DNA of 64,000 nucleotides from NCBI GenBank assembly GCA_027887045.1, contig JAPCJH010000002.1:384723-448722 (forward strand), given 5' to 3'. The notes under the pieces are model-generated. The model did not search any database. It had not been told where the DNA came from and saw nothing but the letters and a program-made list of their open reading frames with translations. Made by a program: the position numbers and the translations under genes. The DNA is from Nitrososphaerota archaeon (lineage in GTDB: Archaea > Thermoproteota > Nitrososphaeria > Nitrososphaerales > Gagatemarchaeaceae). How positions within the stretch are numbered: the first letter of the stretch is position 1; each line of letters opens with the position of its first letter. Shown here piece after piece: positions 379 through 8,312 of this stretch.

Positions 379-1989
379 TCAAGGGGCTGGTGCTTTCTTC
401 CGGTCGCCCCTGATAAAGAGAGCGGCCGCGACGACGGCGACGCTTGCTCCGAGCAGGACGATAAGTAGGATTAGGATTGATTGGGAGAACGCTTCCCGCA
501 GCATAGGAATCAACCCCGCGAAAGATGGATTTGCTCCCACAATCCTGGCGAGGGCCGCCGGAGAAGCCAGAATCTGACCGACGAGATTGGGATCGCCGAG
601 GGTAGCCCGAGCGGCGGCGGGAAGCCCGACTAGCAGGGATGACAATTTGTTTGCGAACACGTTCGTCTGAATCGCGCCGAGGGTCGCGACCCCGATCGCC
701 GCGCCCAGGTTCAACGTGAAGGCGGCAAGTGCGGAGGCGACTCCGATTTCCGTCCGCTGGACCGAATTCTGAAAAGCGACTATCGTGGGCGGGATCATCA
801 GGCCGCTGGCAAACCCGATTGGTACCTCCAGCTCCATCAACTGGATGAGGGACGACGATGAGTTCAGCGATTGCAAGGCCACCAATCCTGCCACAAGTAC
901 GCCGGCGCCGAGGAGTATGATGTTCCTCGCTCCCGTCCTTGACATGGTCGCACCGCTCAAGAGTATGCCTGCGGTCAGCGGAAGCGCCATAGCGTACACA
1001 GCGTTCCTCACGCCCGAGACGTCCGCGCCCAGCACTGCTTGGGCATAGAGGGGCAGGTAGGCGATGAGTCCGAAGAGAACCATCGCGCGCAGTATGTTGA
1101 CTCCTGTCGCGGCCGAGATTGTCCTCGTTTTGAAGAGACGCAGGGGGAGCACCGGCTCTCTCGCCCGGCCTTCGACCCTGATGAATGCGAGAATCACGAC
1201 GATGCTCCCGACAAACAACGCGGCCTCTTCCCAGGATAGCCAGTCGAACGTCGAGCCTCCCAGGAAAAGGCCCAACATGAAGAGCGTAATGGATCCCACT
1301 AGAGCGGAGGCTCCGGCCCAATCGCTGAAGCCGTTCGCCCCGGTGTTTCGCGACTCGCGCAAAGCCAGGTAAATGATGAGGAAGGAGACGACTCCCAATG
1401 GGAGGTTAATGTAGAATATCCACCTCCAGTTGATCGCCTCCGTCAGGTAGGAGCCCGCGGCCGGGGCCACCGCGAAAGCGATGCCGTTGACTGAGAAGAG
1501 AAGTCCCTGGACCCGGCCCCTCTTCGCGGGAGGGAAGAGGTCCCCCGCGATAGCAATCGTGGCTGGGACGAACGTGCCGAATCCGATTCCCTGAATGGCT
1601 CTGAATATGATCAGCTCGTAGATGTTTTGCGAGGCGCCGGAGAGCACGGAACCCACCATGAACACAACGATCCCCAGGAGGAAGAACCTCTTTCGCCCAT
1701 AGAGGTCGGAGAGCTTCCCGAAGATGGGAATGACGACCGTCTGCGTGATGATGAACGAACTGAACACCCAAGCATAGAGGCTAAGGCCGCCAAGATCAGC
1801 GATGATGGTCGGGCCCGCGGTGGCCACTATCGTCACATCCATGAACCCGAGCAACAGTCCGGTGAGGAGCCCCGCTAGAACCAGTGTCACAGTCCTCCTT
1901 GGTAGTGCTGGCATGGCTTGGGTCGCTCCGTCTTGCGAACCCCCTTTCGGGACTCCCGGTGGCTGATCTGTCGGCCGAGACTTCCTCAT
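379..1989 (-). CDS. MFS multidrug exporter, DHA2 (14-helix) family
   Basis: A 536-residue integral membrane protein that probably exports drugs or toxic organics in exchange for protons. The N-terminal part carries the DHA2 motif around MDVTIVATAGPTI in helix 1 and the loop 2-3 motif GKLSDLYGRKR, both diagnostic of MFS antiporters of the EmrB/QacA type, and the hydrophobic profile fits about 14 helices. The frame is open to 2046, but a TATA-like box GTTTATAC at 2018-2025 places transcription start near 1996, so ATG 1989 (MRKSRPTDQ) is preferred. The promoter lies inside the decayed tail of another MFS gene just upstream. The substrate cannot be told from sequence. Confidence 0.9.
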   Translation of the reverse strand: MRKSRPTDQPPGVPKGGSQDGATQAMPALPRRTVTLVLAGLLTGLLLGFMDVTIVATAGPTIIADLGGLSLYAWVFSSFIITQTVVIPIFGKLSDLYGRKRFFLLGIVVFMVGSVLSGASQNIYELIIFRAIQGIGFGTFVPATIAIAGDLFPPAKRGRVQGLLFSVNGIAFAVAPAAGSYLTEAINWRWIFYINLPLGVVSFLIIYLALRESRNTGANGFSDWAGASALVGSITLFMLGLFLGGSTFDWLSWEEAALFVGSIVVILAFIRVEGRAREPVLPLRLFKTRTISAATGVNILRAMVLFGLIAYLPLYAQAVLGADVSGVRNAVYAMALPLTAGILLSGATMSRTGARNIILLGAGVLVAGLVALQSLNSSSSLIQLMELEVPIGFASGLMIPPTIVAFQNSVQRTEIGVASALAAFTLNLGAAIGVATLGAIQTNVFANKLSSLLVGLPAAARATLGDPNLVGQILASPAALARIVGANPSFAGLIPMLREAFSQSILILLIVLLGASVAVVAAALFIRGDRKKAPAP

Positions 1990-2002: not shown

Positions 2003-2164
2003 TCAGTTTTCGTCGGTGTATAAACCCTCGATGGTACTCGTTCCATCGGGAATTGTGAAGGACTTCGGACTCAATTCGGGTTCGGGCTGAGATACGAACC
2101 GCGGTCGTTGAATGCGTAGGGCCATGAGGAAGCTGATTCCGCTGAGCACCGTGGAGCCGTACAT
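2003..2164 (-). pseudogene. Decayed C-terminal tail of an MFS transporter (copy B)
   Basis: A 53-codon open stretch from ATG 2164 to TGA 2003. It reads STVLSGISFLMALRIQRPRF, then a polar tail with SFTIPDGTSTIEG. It is closely related to the tail in the remnant at 3759-4034 (TVLSG.SF.MA.RIQRPRF, then FTIPDG.ST.EG), with roughly three quarters of the bases identical by eye. The remainder of the transporter is missing upstream. It does not resemble the C-terminus of the intact MFS gene next door, so it comes from a different paralogue. Confidence 0.7.
2018..2025 (-). promoter_or_regulatory. TATA-like box of the MFS exporter
   Basis: GTTTATAC on the minus strand, centred about 32 bases before ATG 1989. 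It lies within the end of the MFS-tail remnant, so the present promoter has arisen in, or been retained from, degenerate coding sequence. Confidence 0.45.
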
Positions 2165-2198
2165 CTTTTGCTAGGTTCGACTTCAGTCTGAGGGGCTC

Positions 2199-2495
2199 TT
2201 AGGTTTCGGGTCGCTCCACGAAGTTTCTGATGCTCCCATCGTCCCCAAAGCTGATGAAGAACGTGTAGGATTGTGAACCAGAAAGCGCTTCGCAGACTCT
2301 GCCGCGATAGTTGCCCTCCATCCTGATCTCGTCAACACTCTCCCACCCCGTCTTTTTCTTTACCTCGGTTACCATGTTGCTAAACTCGTTTGCGCAAACG
2401 TCACAGCAGAAGAACATCCTCTGCCCTTCGATCTCACTCCAGTAATCACCCCACGTGGCGCCGCAGATTACGCATCCGTCCCTTCGGACCTTCAT
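2199..2495 (-). CDS. Ta0938-like small zinc-binding protein
   Basis: A 98-residue protein with CVICG at residues 8-12 and CCDVC at about 30-34, a likely four-cysteine zinc site, followed by a mixed alpha/beta tail. The pattern GCVICG...G..MFFCCDVCANEF resembles the archaeal Ta0938 family (named after a Thermoplasma protein of known structure and unknown function); this assignment is from memory of the motif. Its start overlaps the stop of the diiron-protein gene by four bases (ATGA), so the two are probably translated together. A zinc-dependent structural or partner role for its neighbour is an inference. Confidence 0.7.
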   Translation of the reverse strand: MKVRRDGCVICGATWGDYWSEIEGQRMFFCCDVCANEFSNMVTEVKKKTGWESVDEIRMEGNYRGRVCEALSGSQSYTFFISFGDDGSIRNFVERPET

Positions 2496-3424
2496 GCGGC
2501 GCGACCTCCGGCGTAAGCAACGAGCCTGCCATCAAATTGCATCCCCCTTTCGAGCCTGGCCATCAGGTAGCTGTCAAAGGCCTCTACAGACTTCAGGAAG
2601 GTGATCTGGACGTCTTCCACTAGGCCGAACTCCTTGGCGTACCTCTCCACCATCTCGAGCGGGACTTCGGAGTGCTCCACGTCAGCCTCGTAGCCTTCGT
2701 GCAGGAACGCTTTGGTTTCCGGGGTTATCTCGTCATTCTGCAGTATCTGCGGGTCAAAGTATGTTATCTTTGCACCGTCCTGCTTGACGTCCCTGTTGGC
2801 GATAAGTTCCAGGCTGTGCATAGCAGCCATCGTCTCCAACCAGTGCTTATCGCGGCCGATTGCCTGCCAGGTCTGAATTGCGGAAACGGTGGCGGGGAGG
2901 GGCGGAGTTCCGAGGACCGTCTCCCTGCTGAGACCCAGACTCTGGCCCATCCTGATGAGGAGCTCGTAGTGAGAGGGCCTGTCGTCCCCATAGCCGTAGA
3001 ACTCTGTCACTATGTTGTCCAGTTCCTCCTTTACAACATCCGCTCGGTCAGTCTTGGCAAGGACCCACGAAAGAGACCTCACCCACTGCCTCAGGAAATG
3101 CTGATGTTCGAGGACGTAGCCGATTAGAACGGCCTTTGCAGGGTGCTGCAGGGCGAGGACAAACGGATGAGGCTTCAGGCCGAAGAACCTCTCAATAAAA
3201 CGCTGCTTCACCCAGACCCTCAGACCCGTCTTCCCAGTATCGAAGAATTCGAATAAGAGGGATCCCAGCTCCTTCCCCCTGCCCTTATCTTTGGTTATGT
3301 TCCTGTTGAGCCACATGATGTGACTCGCGTCGCTTCTGGCGGCCTCTTCTGAGAAGTGCGTCGAGAGCCCCTCGTAGGAGCCGTAGGCTCGTTCGCAAGC
3401 GGGACACCTCGCCATCTCTGTCAA
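2492..3424 (-). CDS. Haem-oxygenase-like diiron (TENA/PqqC/CADD-type) protein with N-terminal zinc finger
   Basis: 310 residues. Residues 5-35 form a C2H2-like finger (CPACE, then two His about 12 and 20 residues on). The rest is all helical and resembles the TENA/PqqC/CADD superfamily. Candidate iron ligands are the Glu and His of LEHQHFLRQW, the Glu and His of VTEFYGYG and SHYELL, and the terminal FLHEGYEADVEH, which matches the H-x5-D-x2-H type of third-helix motif in haem-oxygenase-like diiron oxidases. Members of this superfamily carry out unusual oxidations of amino acids, fatty acids and cofactors; the substrate here is unknown. It is the middle gene of a three-gene operon, three bases from the gene before and overlapping the gene after by four. 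Confidence 0.75.
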   Translation of the reverse strand: MTEMARCPACERAYGSYEGLSTHFSEEAARSDASHIMWLNRNITKDKGRGKELGSLLFEFFDTGKTGLRVWVKQRFIERFFGLKPHPFVLALQHPAKAVLIGYVLEHQHFLRQWVRSLSWVLAKTDRADVVKEELDNIVTEFYGYGDDRPSHYELLIRMGQSLGLSRETVLGTPPLPATVSAIQTWQAIGRDKHWLETMAAMHSLELIANRDVKQDGAKITYFDPQILQNDEITPETKAFLHEGYEADVEHSEVPLEMVERYAKEFGLVEDVQITFLKSVEAFDSYLMARLERGMQFDGRLVAYAGGRAA

Positions 3425-3427
3425 CTC

Positions 3428-3685
3428 TCAGAATGAGAACTCGGCTGGGAGCCTGCTCCGGAGCTCCCGATATTCCGGCGTATCCGAATACTTTTTCGCG
3501 ATTTCGACGAGCGTCGCTTTCACGGCGTCAGGGCCCAGGCCTCTGGCGTTCGCGACCATTCGCACAGTATTCTCGAAGTCGTCCCCGCACGACGAATAGC
3601 AGTTGCACATCCCGCGAAGGAGTTCGTGTTCTCTCGGAGTCAACGGATAGAGTCTGGCGTCGTGCGTGTTGAAGAGCTTTTCCAT
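3428..3685 (-). CDS. Small conserved-looking protein of the diiron cassette
   Basis: 85 residues, mostly helical, with a cysteine cluster CNCYSSC at about 27-33 that could bind a metal. I do not recognise the family. It is the first gene of the operon 3685-2199; only three bases separate its stop from the start of the diiron protein, so co-translation and a shared function are likely. A TATA-like box (TTCATAAGG, minus strand, about 3702-3711) lies about 22 bases before ATG, suggesting a leaderless transcript for the whole cassette. Confidence 0.65.
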   Translation of the reverse strand: MEKLFNTHDARLYPLTPREHELLRGMCNCYSSCGDDFENTVRMVANARGLGPDAVKATLVEIAKKYSDTPEYRELRSRLPAEFSF

Positions 3686-3758
3686 GGTTCAGCCGATCCG
3701 ACGCCTTATGAATTCGAAGCCTAAACTGCCGACTGAGTTGATGTCCGAGATCAGGAAG

Positions 3759-4034
3759 TCAGCTCTCGTCGGCGGATGATCCCTCGAAGGTACTCCCCCC
3801 ATCAGGAATCGTGAAGGGCTTTGAACTCAACCCAGCGTCGGCCTGAGGAACGAAACGGGGACGTTGAATGCGTGTCGCCATGATGAAGCTGGTCCCGCTG
3901 AGGACCGTCGCGCCGACGAACGCGAGCTGGAAGCCGGCGACCAGGCTCGAAGGAGAAATGGTATTACCCGCTCCTGTCACAGCGCCAATCAGAGTCACTG
4001 CAATCGCAAGTCCAATTGGACCGCCAATTGTTCT
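3759..4034 (-). pseudogene. Decayed C-terminal part of an MFS transporter (copy A)
   Basis: An open stretch of 91 codons ending at TAA/TGA 3759 and bounded upstream by an in-frame stop at 4035-4037. It reads RTIGGPIGLAIAV, typical of the penultimate DHA2 helix, then the last helix SLVAGFQLAFVGATVLSG and a polar tail RIQRPRFVPQ...FTIPDG. It is the longer of two related tails that bracket the diiron cassette. The earlier two thirds of the transporter are gone; the neighbouring SDR gene ends at 4070, 36 bases away. Confidence 0.75.
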
Positions 4035-7079: not shown

Positions 7080-8312
7080 ATGAGTAAAGTGGAAAACCCG
7101 GCCAACGATGCGAAGAAGCTCGCCTTGAGGTACAAGGCGCTCGAAGCGCAGCTTCAGCAGTCAGTCTCGAAGAAGCAATATAACGAAACCGTTTCCAAAC
7201 TGGAAGGAAAGAATACAGAGCAGGAGAAGGATTTAGCGAGGACCAAGGCGGAACTGCAGAAGACTAGCATCCTGAACAAGCAGTTCGCATCGATCGGAGA
7301 GCAGATAGCGGCCCTCGGTAAGGCTGTTGGCGCCCAGAGCAAGACGATCGATTCTCTGATGTCAAAGATCATTCAAGGAACCGTACCGTCTTCGGTTCAC
7401 CACCAGACAGTCTCGAAAGTCAGAGAGCTGGAGGAGAAAATCGAAGACACGGTGAACAAGGCAGAGTACGCTACCATGGAGAGACGCTACGAGGAGGCCG
7501 CGCGAAAGATTAGCAACATGGTTCCTTCGTCCGAATACAACGCCCTCAAGGACAAGGTCGAGGAGATGGAAGGTACCATTTCATCGATGGTCCCTAGGGA
7601 ACAGTTCAGTATTAGTGAGGCGAGGGCGAAGGAGCTTGAAGCCAAGCTCGCTGAGCATGTCCCACAGAGTACTTACGACGAATTGGTCTCCAAGGTGGTG
7701 CTGCTAGCGGAGGAGGTCACCGGAGGCGCGCCCGCCCGAGAAGAGCAGGAAACGGCGGCACAGACGGAGCCAGAAGAACCACAGTCACCCGTCATGCACG
7801 AACCAGTTCCCAGCGAGCCCTATGAAGTCCCCGGGCAGGAGTTTACGGAACCCGAGGCTGTCAAGGTCGAGGCTACATTCGAAGCCCGCTCAGCTGAAGC
7901 CCAACCTGCGAGCGAGCCTGCGACACAGGAGATAAGGGAAATCCAATCCCAGCTGGCAGAGATAAGCACAAACGAGGCCACGCAAAAGAACCCGACCGAA
8001 GAGAGTCCGAAGGAGGGAAGTACTTTCCGGTTCTTTGACACAATCATCGAGGTCAAGACGGGCACCGAATTCGCCAAAGTTTTGACGAACGTCCCCACGA
8101 AGTCGCTTGAATCTGACGTTCAGAGCGGCGAGTTCGAGAAATGGTTCAGGGACACTCTTTCAGACGATACAACAGCAGAATCTTTCAAGAAGATGAGAGA
8201 GAGCGGTACTTCCGGCGAAGAGCTCCGGAATCAGGTGGCTTCAGCCGTATCAAAATTCGTGGTCCAACAAGAAAAGCCGATCCAGACCCAAGCCGCCGAA
8301 ACAGGCAACTGA
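7080..8312 (+). CDS. Repeat coiled-coil protein with C-terminal DUF5752-like domain
   Basis: 410 residues, soluble, acidic. Residues 15-220 are a coiled coil with an irregular repeat of about 27-30 residues built round VP or VS + two polar residues + Y/F, e.g. SVSKKQYNETVSKLEG, MVPSSEYNALKDKVEEMEG, MVPREQF, HVPQSTYDELVSKV. A Glu/Pro-rich linker (about 225-320) leads to a globular end, FRFFDTIIEVKTG...VP.KSLESDV.SGEFEKWFRDTL, resembling the archaeal DUF5752 family. Similar repeats occur in archaeal proteins of unknown role; a structural or scaffold function is inferred. Monocistronic, flanked by intergenic DNA on both sides. Confidence 0.75.
   Translation: MSKVENPANDAKKLALRYKALEAQLQQSVSKKQYNETVSKLEGKNTEQEKDLARTKAELQKTSILNKQFASIGEQIAALGKAVGAQSKTIDSLMSKIIQGTVPSSVHHQTVSKVRELEEKIEDTVNKAEYATMERRYEEAARKISNMVPSSEYNALKDKVEEMEGTISSMVPREQFSISEARAKELEAKLAEHVPQSTYDELVSKVVLLAEEVTGGAPAREEQETAAQTEPEEPQSPVMHEPVPSEPYEVPGQEFTEPEAVKVEATFEARSAEAQPASEPATQEIREIQSQLAEISTNEATQKNPTEESPKEGSTFRFFDTIIEVKTGTEFAKVLTNVPTKSLESDVQSGEFEKWFRDTLSDDTTAESFKKMRESGTSGEELRNQVASAVSKFVVQQEKPIQTQAAETGN

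Follow-up and report, generated by a model that had tools for sequence, protein, structure and literature searches.

Introduction

Of the three proteins encoded by the archaeal operon described here, two have orthologues or homologues with solved structures. One of these is SSO2700 of Sulfolobus solfataricus (PDB 4LQX), a TENA/THI-4 domain-containing protein for which we found no reported function, nor any paper naming SSO2700 or 4LQX, in the open-licence literature searched. The other is Ta0938 of Thermoplasma acidophilum (2FQH, an NMR structure). A 2007 table places Ta0938 and Ta0939 (PQQC) among the genes that are mainly common to Thermoplasmata and Sulfolobus, and gives neither an operon link between them nor a function (PMC1852104). 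A sequence-only reading of the present DNA had proposed the operon as the most likely undescribed enzyme system of the window; its enzymatic function is indeed undescribed in the literature searched.

By both profile and fold, the closest characterised metal-bound relatives of the central protein of this operon are the self-sacrificing 4-aminobenzoate synthases CADD/PabS. The heme-oxygenase-like dimetal oxidases (HDOs) are of the same fold class, and a survey of their motifs found the ligand pattern E-H-X-H-D/E-H in about 85% of groups, with FlcD as a mononuclear exception (PMC11363339). A recent HDO review, in the sections on which we draw, refers to bacterial species and notes that none of the HDOs so far studied requires a protein effector; an N-terminal zinc finger and a near-constant Ta0938 neighbour, both of which characterise the family analysed here, are not described in those sections (PMC13108848).

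Results

A conserved gene pair with an optional third gene

The window, by which we mean the whole stretch of 64,000 nucleotides analysed, contains the three-gene operon that the sequence-only reading had delimited at 3685-2199, and its open reading frames were found in the places given there. The central gene encodes a heme-oxygenase-fold protein, hereafter the HO protein.

3428..3685, minus strand: small accessory protein gene, 85 aa, with a C-Y-x2-C motif and a predicted four-helix structure; optional third operon gene
2492..3424, minus strand: HO protein gene (TENA_THI-4 / Haem_oxygenas_2, N-terminal zinc finger), a frame of 310 aa with a likely ATG at 3415
3242..3415, minus strand: N-terminal C2H2 zinc-finger region of the HO protein (C7, C10, H23, H35; zf-C2H2_9 at residues 4-61)
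2199..2495, minus strand: gene for a Ta0938-family zinc/TRASH-like protein, 98 aa (PF11494)

The HO protein matched the Pfam families TENA_THI-4 (E=1.9e-33), Haem_oxygenas_2 (2e-18) and zf-C2H2_9 (2e-16), and the zinc-finger residues C7, C10, H23 and H35 were each kept in at least 46 of the 48 rows of the family alignment. Its AF2 model (pLDDT 89, pTM 0.89) gave 4LQX as the best Foldseek match (TM 0.92), followed by metal-bound CADD, with PqqC, TenA and BesC also among the matches; the target-normalised TM of 0.76 for CADD, together with 0.72 for BesC, places the protein in the heme-oxygenase alpha-helical fold that HDOs share. A phmmer comparison with 4LQX gave E=5e-105. The middle protein is thus a zinc-finger heme-oxygenase-fold protein and an orthologue of SSO2700, to which it aligns over 298 residues at about 52% identity. 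SSO2700 has the same zinc finger, the same ligand residues and a Ta0938 gene next downstream; unlike the Sulfolobus locus, the window operon additionally includes the small protein. The third protein belongs to the same family as Ta0938 of T. acidophilum, with E=4e-38 and 130 bits against PF11494 (gathering score 27) and E=1e-23 against 2FQH, and its cysteines C8, C11, C30, C31 and C34 were invariant in 47 sequences. The stop of the HO gene and the start of the Ta0938 gene overlap by 4 nt, which suggests that the pair is probably translationally coupled.

When the trio was sought in other archaeal genomes, as had been suggested, the order small gene, HO, Ta0938 was kept. Strong scores for the small gene were obtained in 5 of 398 Thermoproteota genomes, in all five immediately 5′ of the HO gene, and in the tree a well-supported branch separates the HO genes with this neighbour from the ligand-less group described below. 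The small protein had zero Pfam, NCBIfam or PHROG matches, and its structure model (pLDDT 73.7, moderate only) gave no PDB match at E<0.001 and a likeness to HTH proteins that was not significant. Its HMMER matches to designed repeats and to IpaD were set aside as resembling chance similarity at the level of helices. The small gene was also seen at locus L005, and in the genome G331, from the window's own family, it is frameshifted (L075, 5921-6136), with the HO and Ta0938 genes intact. The core of the window operon is a two-protein module of HO and Ta0938, a near-constant neighbour, and the small Cys-cluster protein is an optional add-on.

Distribution and gene neighbourhood

The HO gene was present in 20 of 398 Thermoproteota genomes and in 24 of 293 genomes of the Thermoplasmatota sample, and in 2 of the 46 genomes of the window's own family. 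Among the genomes inspected, 42 from the two phyla (19 Thermoproteota, the window counted, and 23 Thermoplasmatota) had Ta0938 immediately downstream of an HO gene, this adjacency referring to HO genes with intact ligands. The distribution is thus wider than that in the 2007 table (PMC1852104), since it takes in the lineage of the window and other Thermoproteota families.

Several loci depart from the single pair. One genome (G445) has two complete HO-Ta0938 pairs (L004, L145), and in another (G277) an additional Ta0938 copy (L082, 1239-1499), about 7.7 kb from the intact pair, lies apart from any HO gene. The operon is decayed in G664 (L123), where the small gene and a broken HO gene are found without Ta0938, and in G028 (L080), where only an HO fragment is left.

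Beyond the trio, no gene family common to unrelated genomes was found beside the operon at 17 loci. A role in respiratory-quinone biosynthesis was considered because UbiX-like and prenyl-synthase-like genes (recognised by eye) lie near L002 and L006, and because the family presumably occurs in thermoacidophiles, an impression formed from the known genera; this role was set aside, as these genes are absent from the other loci. A Rieske-like ferredoxin gene, also recognised by eye, adjoins the operon at L012 and L019/L085, that is, in two genomes of one genus and on opposite sides; its product is a possible electron donor, though not a general one.

Putative metal-ligand residues of the HO protein

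The HO protein was aligned with CADD using a profile built from six sequences, and conservation was counted over 48 sequences. The metal ligands of CADD are E81, H88, E142, H174, D178 and H181, and the aligned CADD sequence has these residues at the same numbers. All of the corresponding codons lie on the minus strand:

2672..3004, minus strand: stretch with the putative metal-ligand codons, defined by profile alignment to CADD, conservation and co-loss in paralogues
3002-3004, minus strand: E141 codon, aligned with CADD E81; E in 46/48 rows
2969-2971, minus strand: H152 codon, aligned with CADD H88; H in 45/48
2816-2818, minus strand: H203 codon, non-canonical candidate ligand; H in 44/48
2807-2809, minus strand: E206 codon, aligned with CADD E142; E in 46/48, D in the other 2
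2693-2695, minus strand: G244 codon, at the position of CADD H174; Gly in 42/48, never His
2681-2683, minus strand: D248 codon, aligned with CADD D178; D in 44/48
2672-2674, minus strand: H251 codon, aligned with CADD H181; H in 45/48

Five of the six canonical HDO ligands are kept, as are five of the six CADD ligands, CADD H174 being Gly in the HO protein. As in HDOs, there are Glu and His on alpha1 and a carboxylate, Glu, on alpha2. On alpha3, the HDO motif H-x3-D/E-x2-H is incomplete, its first His being replaced by G244 while D248 and H251 are kept, so that the family reads E-H-E-G-D-H against the E-H-X-H-D/E-H of the survey. Because of this Gly we class the HO family as HDO-like only and not as canonical HDO. 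The description of the middle protein as a diiron protein in the sequence-only reading accordingly stands in so far as most ligand residues are kept, but the site is not the canonical one.

H203 is one turn ahead of E206 in a predicted helix (residues 195-209, AF2) and, as judged from sequence, this residue on the preceding ligand helix is a candidate ligand that may replace the missing alpha3 His. H109 was rejected as a ligand, since it is Phe in 12 of the 48 rows, ligand-intact members among them.

We considered whether the change on alpha3 might leave a site for a single iron, as in FlcD, an HDO-fold enzyme with an altered alpha3 motif that uses one Fe (PMC11363339). The alpha3 motif deviates in both proteins, but in opposite ways: FlcD kept the first His and lost the last two ligands (to V and R), and the HO family shows the reverse (Gly, D, H), so that a FlcD-like mononuclear enzyme appears unlikely. 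A cofactor-free oxidase resembling PqqC, in which a pocket of acidic residues and His would act with O2 and no metal, and Ta0938 would be a structural zinc partner, also has some claim, given that the leading fold matches include PqqC structures and that nearly all HO members lack one canonical ligand. However, the five HDO ligands that align with the CADD metal ligands are retained with hardly an exception, and the PqqC model TIGR02111 scores 12.4 bits against a cut-off of 240; we regard this explanation as rather improbable.

Two known activities of the fold were disfavoured. For a CADD-type 4-aminobenzoate synthase, the score against TIGR04305 was 28.1 (cut-off 200), and the column of the amine-donor Lys152 of CADD is variable (K13 D12 R9 P4, also Q/N/A/E, in 48 rows), so the donor Lys is not conserved; the sacrificial Tyr27 of CADD falls outside the aligned stretch, and a nearby position of the HO protein, 88, is Phe in 45/48. 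The thiaminase II TenA carries its catalytic Cys in the core of the fold, and the HO family has no invariant or near-invariant core Cys, its only such cysteines being C7 and C10 of the zinc finger.

Paralogues that lost the ligands and the partner

Four Thermoplasmatota paralogues (L119, L120, L124 and the second copy in G588) have lost all of H152, H203 and D248, and in part E141, E206 and H251, while the zinc finger and E106 are retained. Ta0938 adjoins none of the four; its place is taken in each case by one shared, unrelated gene of 85-109 aa, for which no Pfam match was found. G444 and G588 hold both versions of the HO gene, and in these genomes Ta0938 adjoins the ligand-intact copy. Furthermore, PF11494 was found nowhere in G655 and G616, which have only a ligand-less paralogue, nor in G664 with its decayed operon, and was present in the other 20 of the 23 genomes. 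The ligand-less paralogues form one clade in the tree, with 100/100 support for three of them, indicating that the co-loss was a single evolutionary event. The joint loss of the ligands and of Ta0938 suggests that Ta0938 is tied to the metal-ligand set and points to H203 as a candidate ligand; nonetheless, Y245 and H107 are also altered in these four proteins, so that co-variation among non-canonical residues extends beyond H203. Ligand-less HO paralogues with the conserved 85-109 aa partner in the Ta0938 position were seen at L144, L146, L147, L124, L120 and L119, and at the first three of these loci a convergent gene follows that looks by eye like a winged-helix regulator.

These paralogues bear on a non-enzymatic explanation, in which the protein would be a zinc-finger regulator or scaffold and the HO domain would merely bind a ligand. 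The N-terminal C2H2 zinc finger, and its retention by the paralogues without ligands, would fit such a role. On the other hand, residues of the metal-ligand type are among the most conserved positions of the HO protein (48 rows), and two very divergent HO proteins (L121 and L122, only about 30% identical) lack the zinc finger but keep both the ligands and the Ta0938 neighbour. This indicates that the zinc finger is dispensable and the pairing with Ta0938 central, and a purely regulatory or scaffolding protein is accordingly a poor candidate.

Transporter remnants flanking the operon

The operon lies between two fragments of transporter genes, and the following features are needed to judge them:

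3759..4034, minus strand: tail 1, decayed MFS C-terminal remnant, a 5′-truncated pseudogene upstream of the operon
2003..2176, minus strand: tail 2, decayed MFS C-terminal remnant downstream of the operon
379..1914, minus strand: intact DHA2-type MFS transporter, a neighbour outside the system; longest frame 379-2046, likely ATG 1914
7080..8312, plus strand: coiled-coil protein gene, a synteny anchor outside the system; its G331 homologue has 54% identity

An ungapped alignment of the two tails covers 157 nt (2003-2159 with 3759-3915) at 78% identity; its local alignment score is 174, whereas 200 shuffles never gave more than 32. In genomes of the same family, open frames of 500-650 aa have a C-terminal region that matches residues 1-53 of tail 1 at about 30-43% identity and, on these alignments, the tails are remnants of one MFS transporter subfamily. 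The intact parent may be missing, since the genome of the window is 56% complete. The intact MFS next door (PF07690, E=1e-51; EmrB subfamily score 200.7, below the cut-off of 230) ends differently. The earlier description of the two flanks as same-strand remnants of one MFS C-terminus, distinct from the end of the intact gene, was thus borne out.

It had further been inferred that recombination within an array of MFS paralogues had introduced or duplicated the cassette, and the two tail copies do flank the operon in direct orientation, 1756 nt apart. Several observations count against recombination between MFS paralogues. The copies are only 78% identical, and their substitutions by codon position (12/8/17) and dN/dS of 0.33 indicate that they diverged mainly as coding paralogues and then decayed. 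A third scrap of 83 nt, 75% identical, lies elsewhere in the genome (G000, C2:349918-350000, L041), some 35 kb upstream of where the window begins and about 37 kb away, directly after a PD-(D/E)XK nuclease gene, and the three scraps share the same final base. The base-by-base alignment and repeat search that had been recommended gave no near-identical repeats flanking the operon; the repeats found were the 78% tail repeat itself and short ones at chance level. No empty operon site was seen in a relative. Finally, G331 has the operon without tails, with an HO protein 70% identical, directly beside its homologue of 7080-8312 (C72:17200-18162, adjoining the small gene at C72:17024). The only match of the 7080-8312 product, to DUF5752 at its C-terminus, was below threshold. 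Between the operon and this gene the window has about 3.4 kb extra, including tail 1 and a short-chain dehydrogenase, and the tails therefore lie in segments that G331 does not share. We consider it very improbable that MFS recombination brought in the cassette; whether the extra segment reflects loss in G331 or gain in the window, the tails are flank history, or unrelated debris, and are not part of the system.

Discussion

We judge the chances to be about even that the HO protein is a noncanonical metal-dependent oxidase or oxygenase, with Ta0938 as a dedicated metal-delivery or redox partner and the small protein as an optional helper. In such a system, a rebuilt HDO site of the HO protein, composed of E141, H152, E206, D248 and H251, with H203 in place of the missing alpha3 His, would most likely hold one or two ions of a redox metal (Fe or Mn), and the protein would oxidise, with O2, a substrate that is either a small molecule or bound to a carrier. 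Through its five invariant cysteines, Ta0938 would deliver the metal or supply electrons or thiols to the HO protein, and the small protein would assist where it is present. Some considerations count against this reading: the zinc of Ta0938 may be purely structural, PqqC illustrates that the heme-oxygenase fold can oxidise without a metal, the co-loss in the paralogues was a single event, and the second Ta0938 copy of G277 has no HO neighbour.

A more specific version of the metal-dependent reading, which we put forward tentatively, is that of a rewired HDO-like family in which the alpha3 His became Gly, H203 on alpha2 took over, and Ta0938 is indispensable as a metallochaperone or redox partner. 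A single lineage of paralogues would then have lost the site and swapped its partner, so that metal loading and the choice of partner would co-evolve.

HDOs are a fast-growing enzyme superfamily, and a widespread archaeal clade with changed ligands and an almost invariant partner would broaden the known metal sites of the fold. The HO/Ta0938 pair would also offer a case of metal status being linked to a partner protein, and the structures from Sulfolobus (4LQX) and Thermoplasma (2FQH) make this system directly testable.
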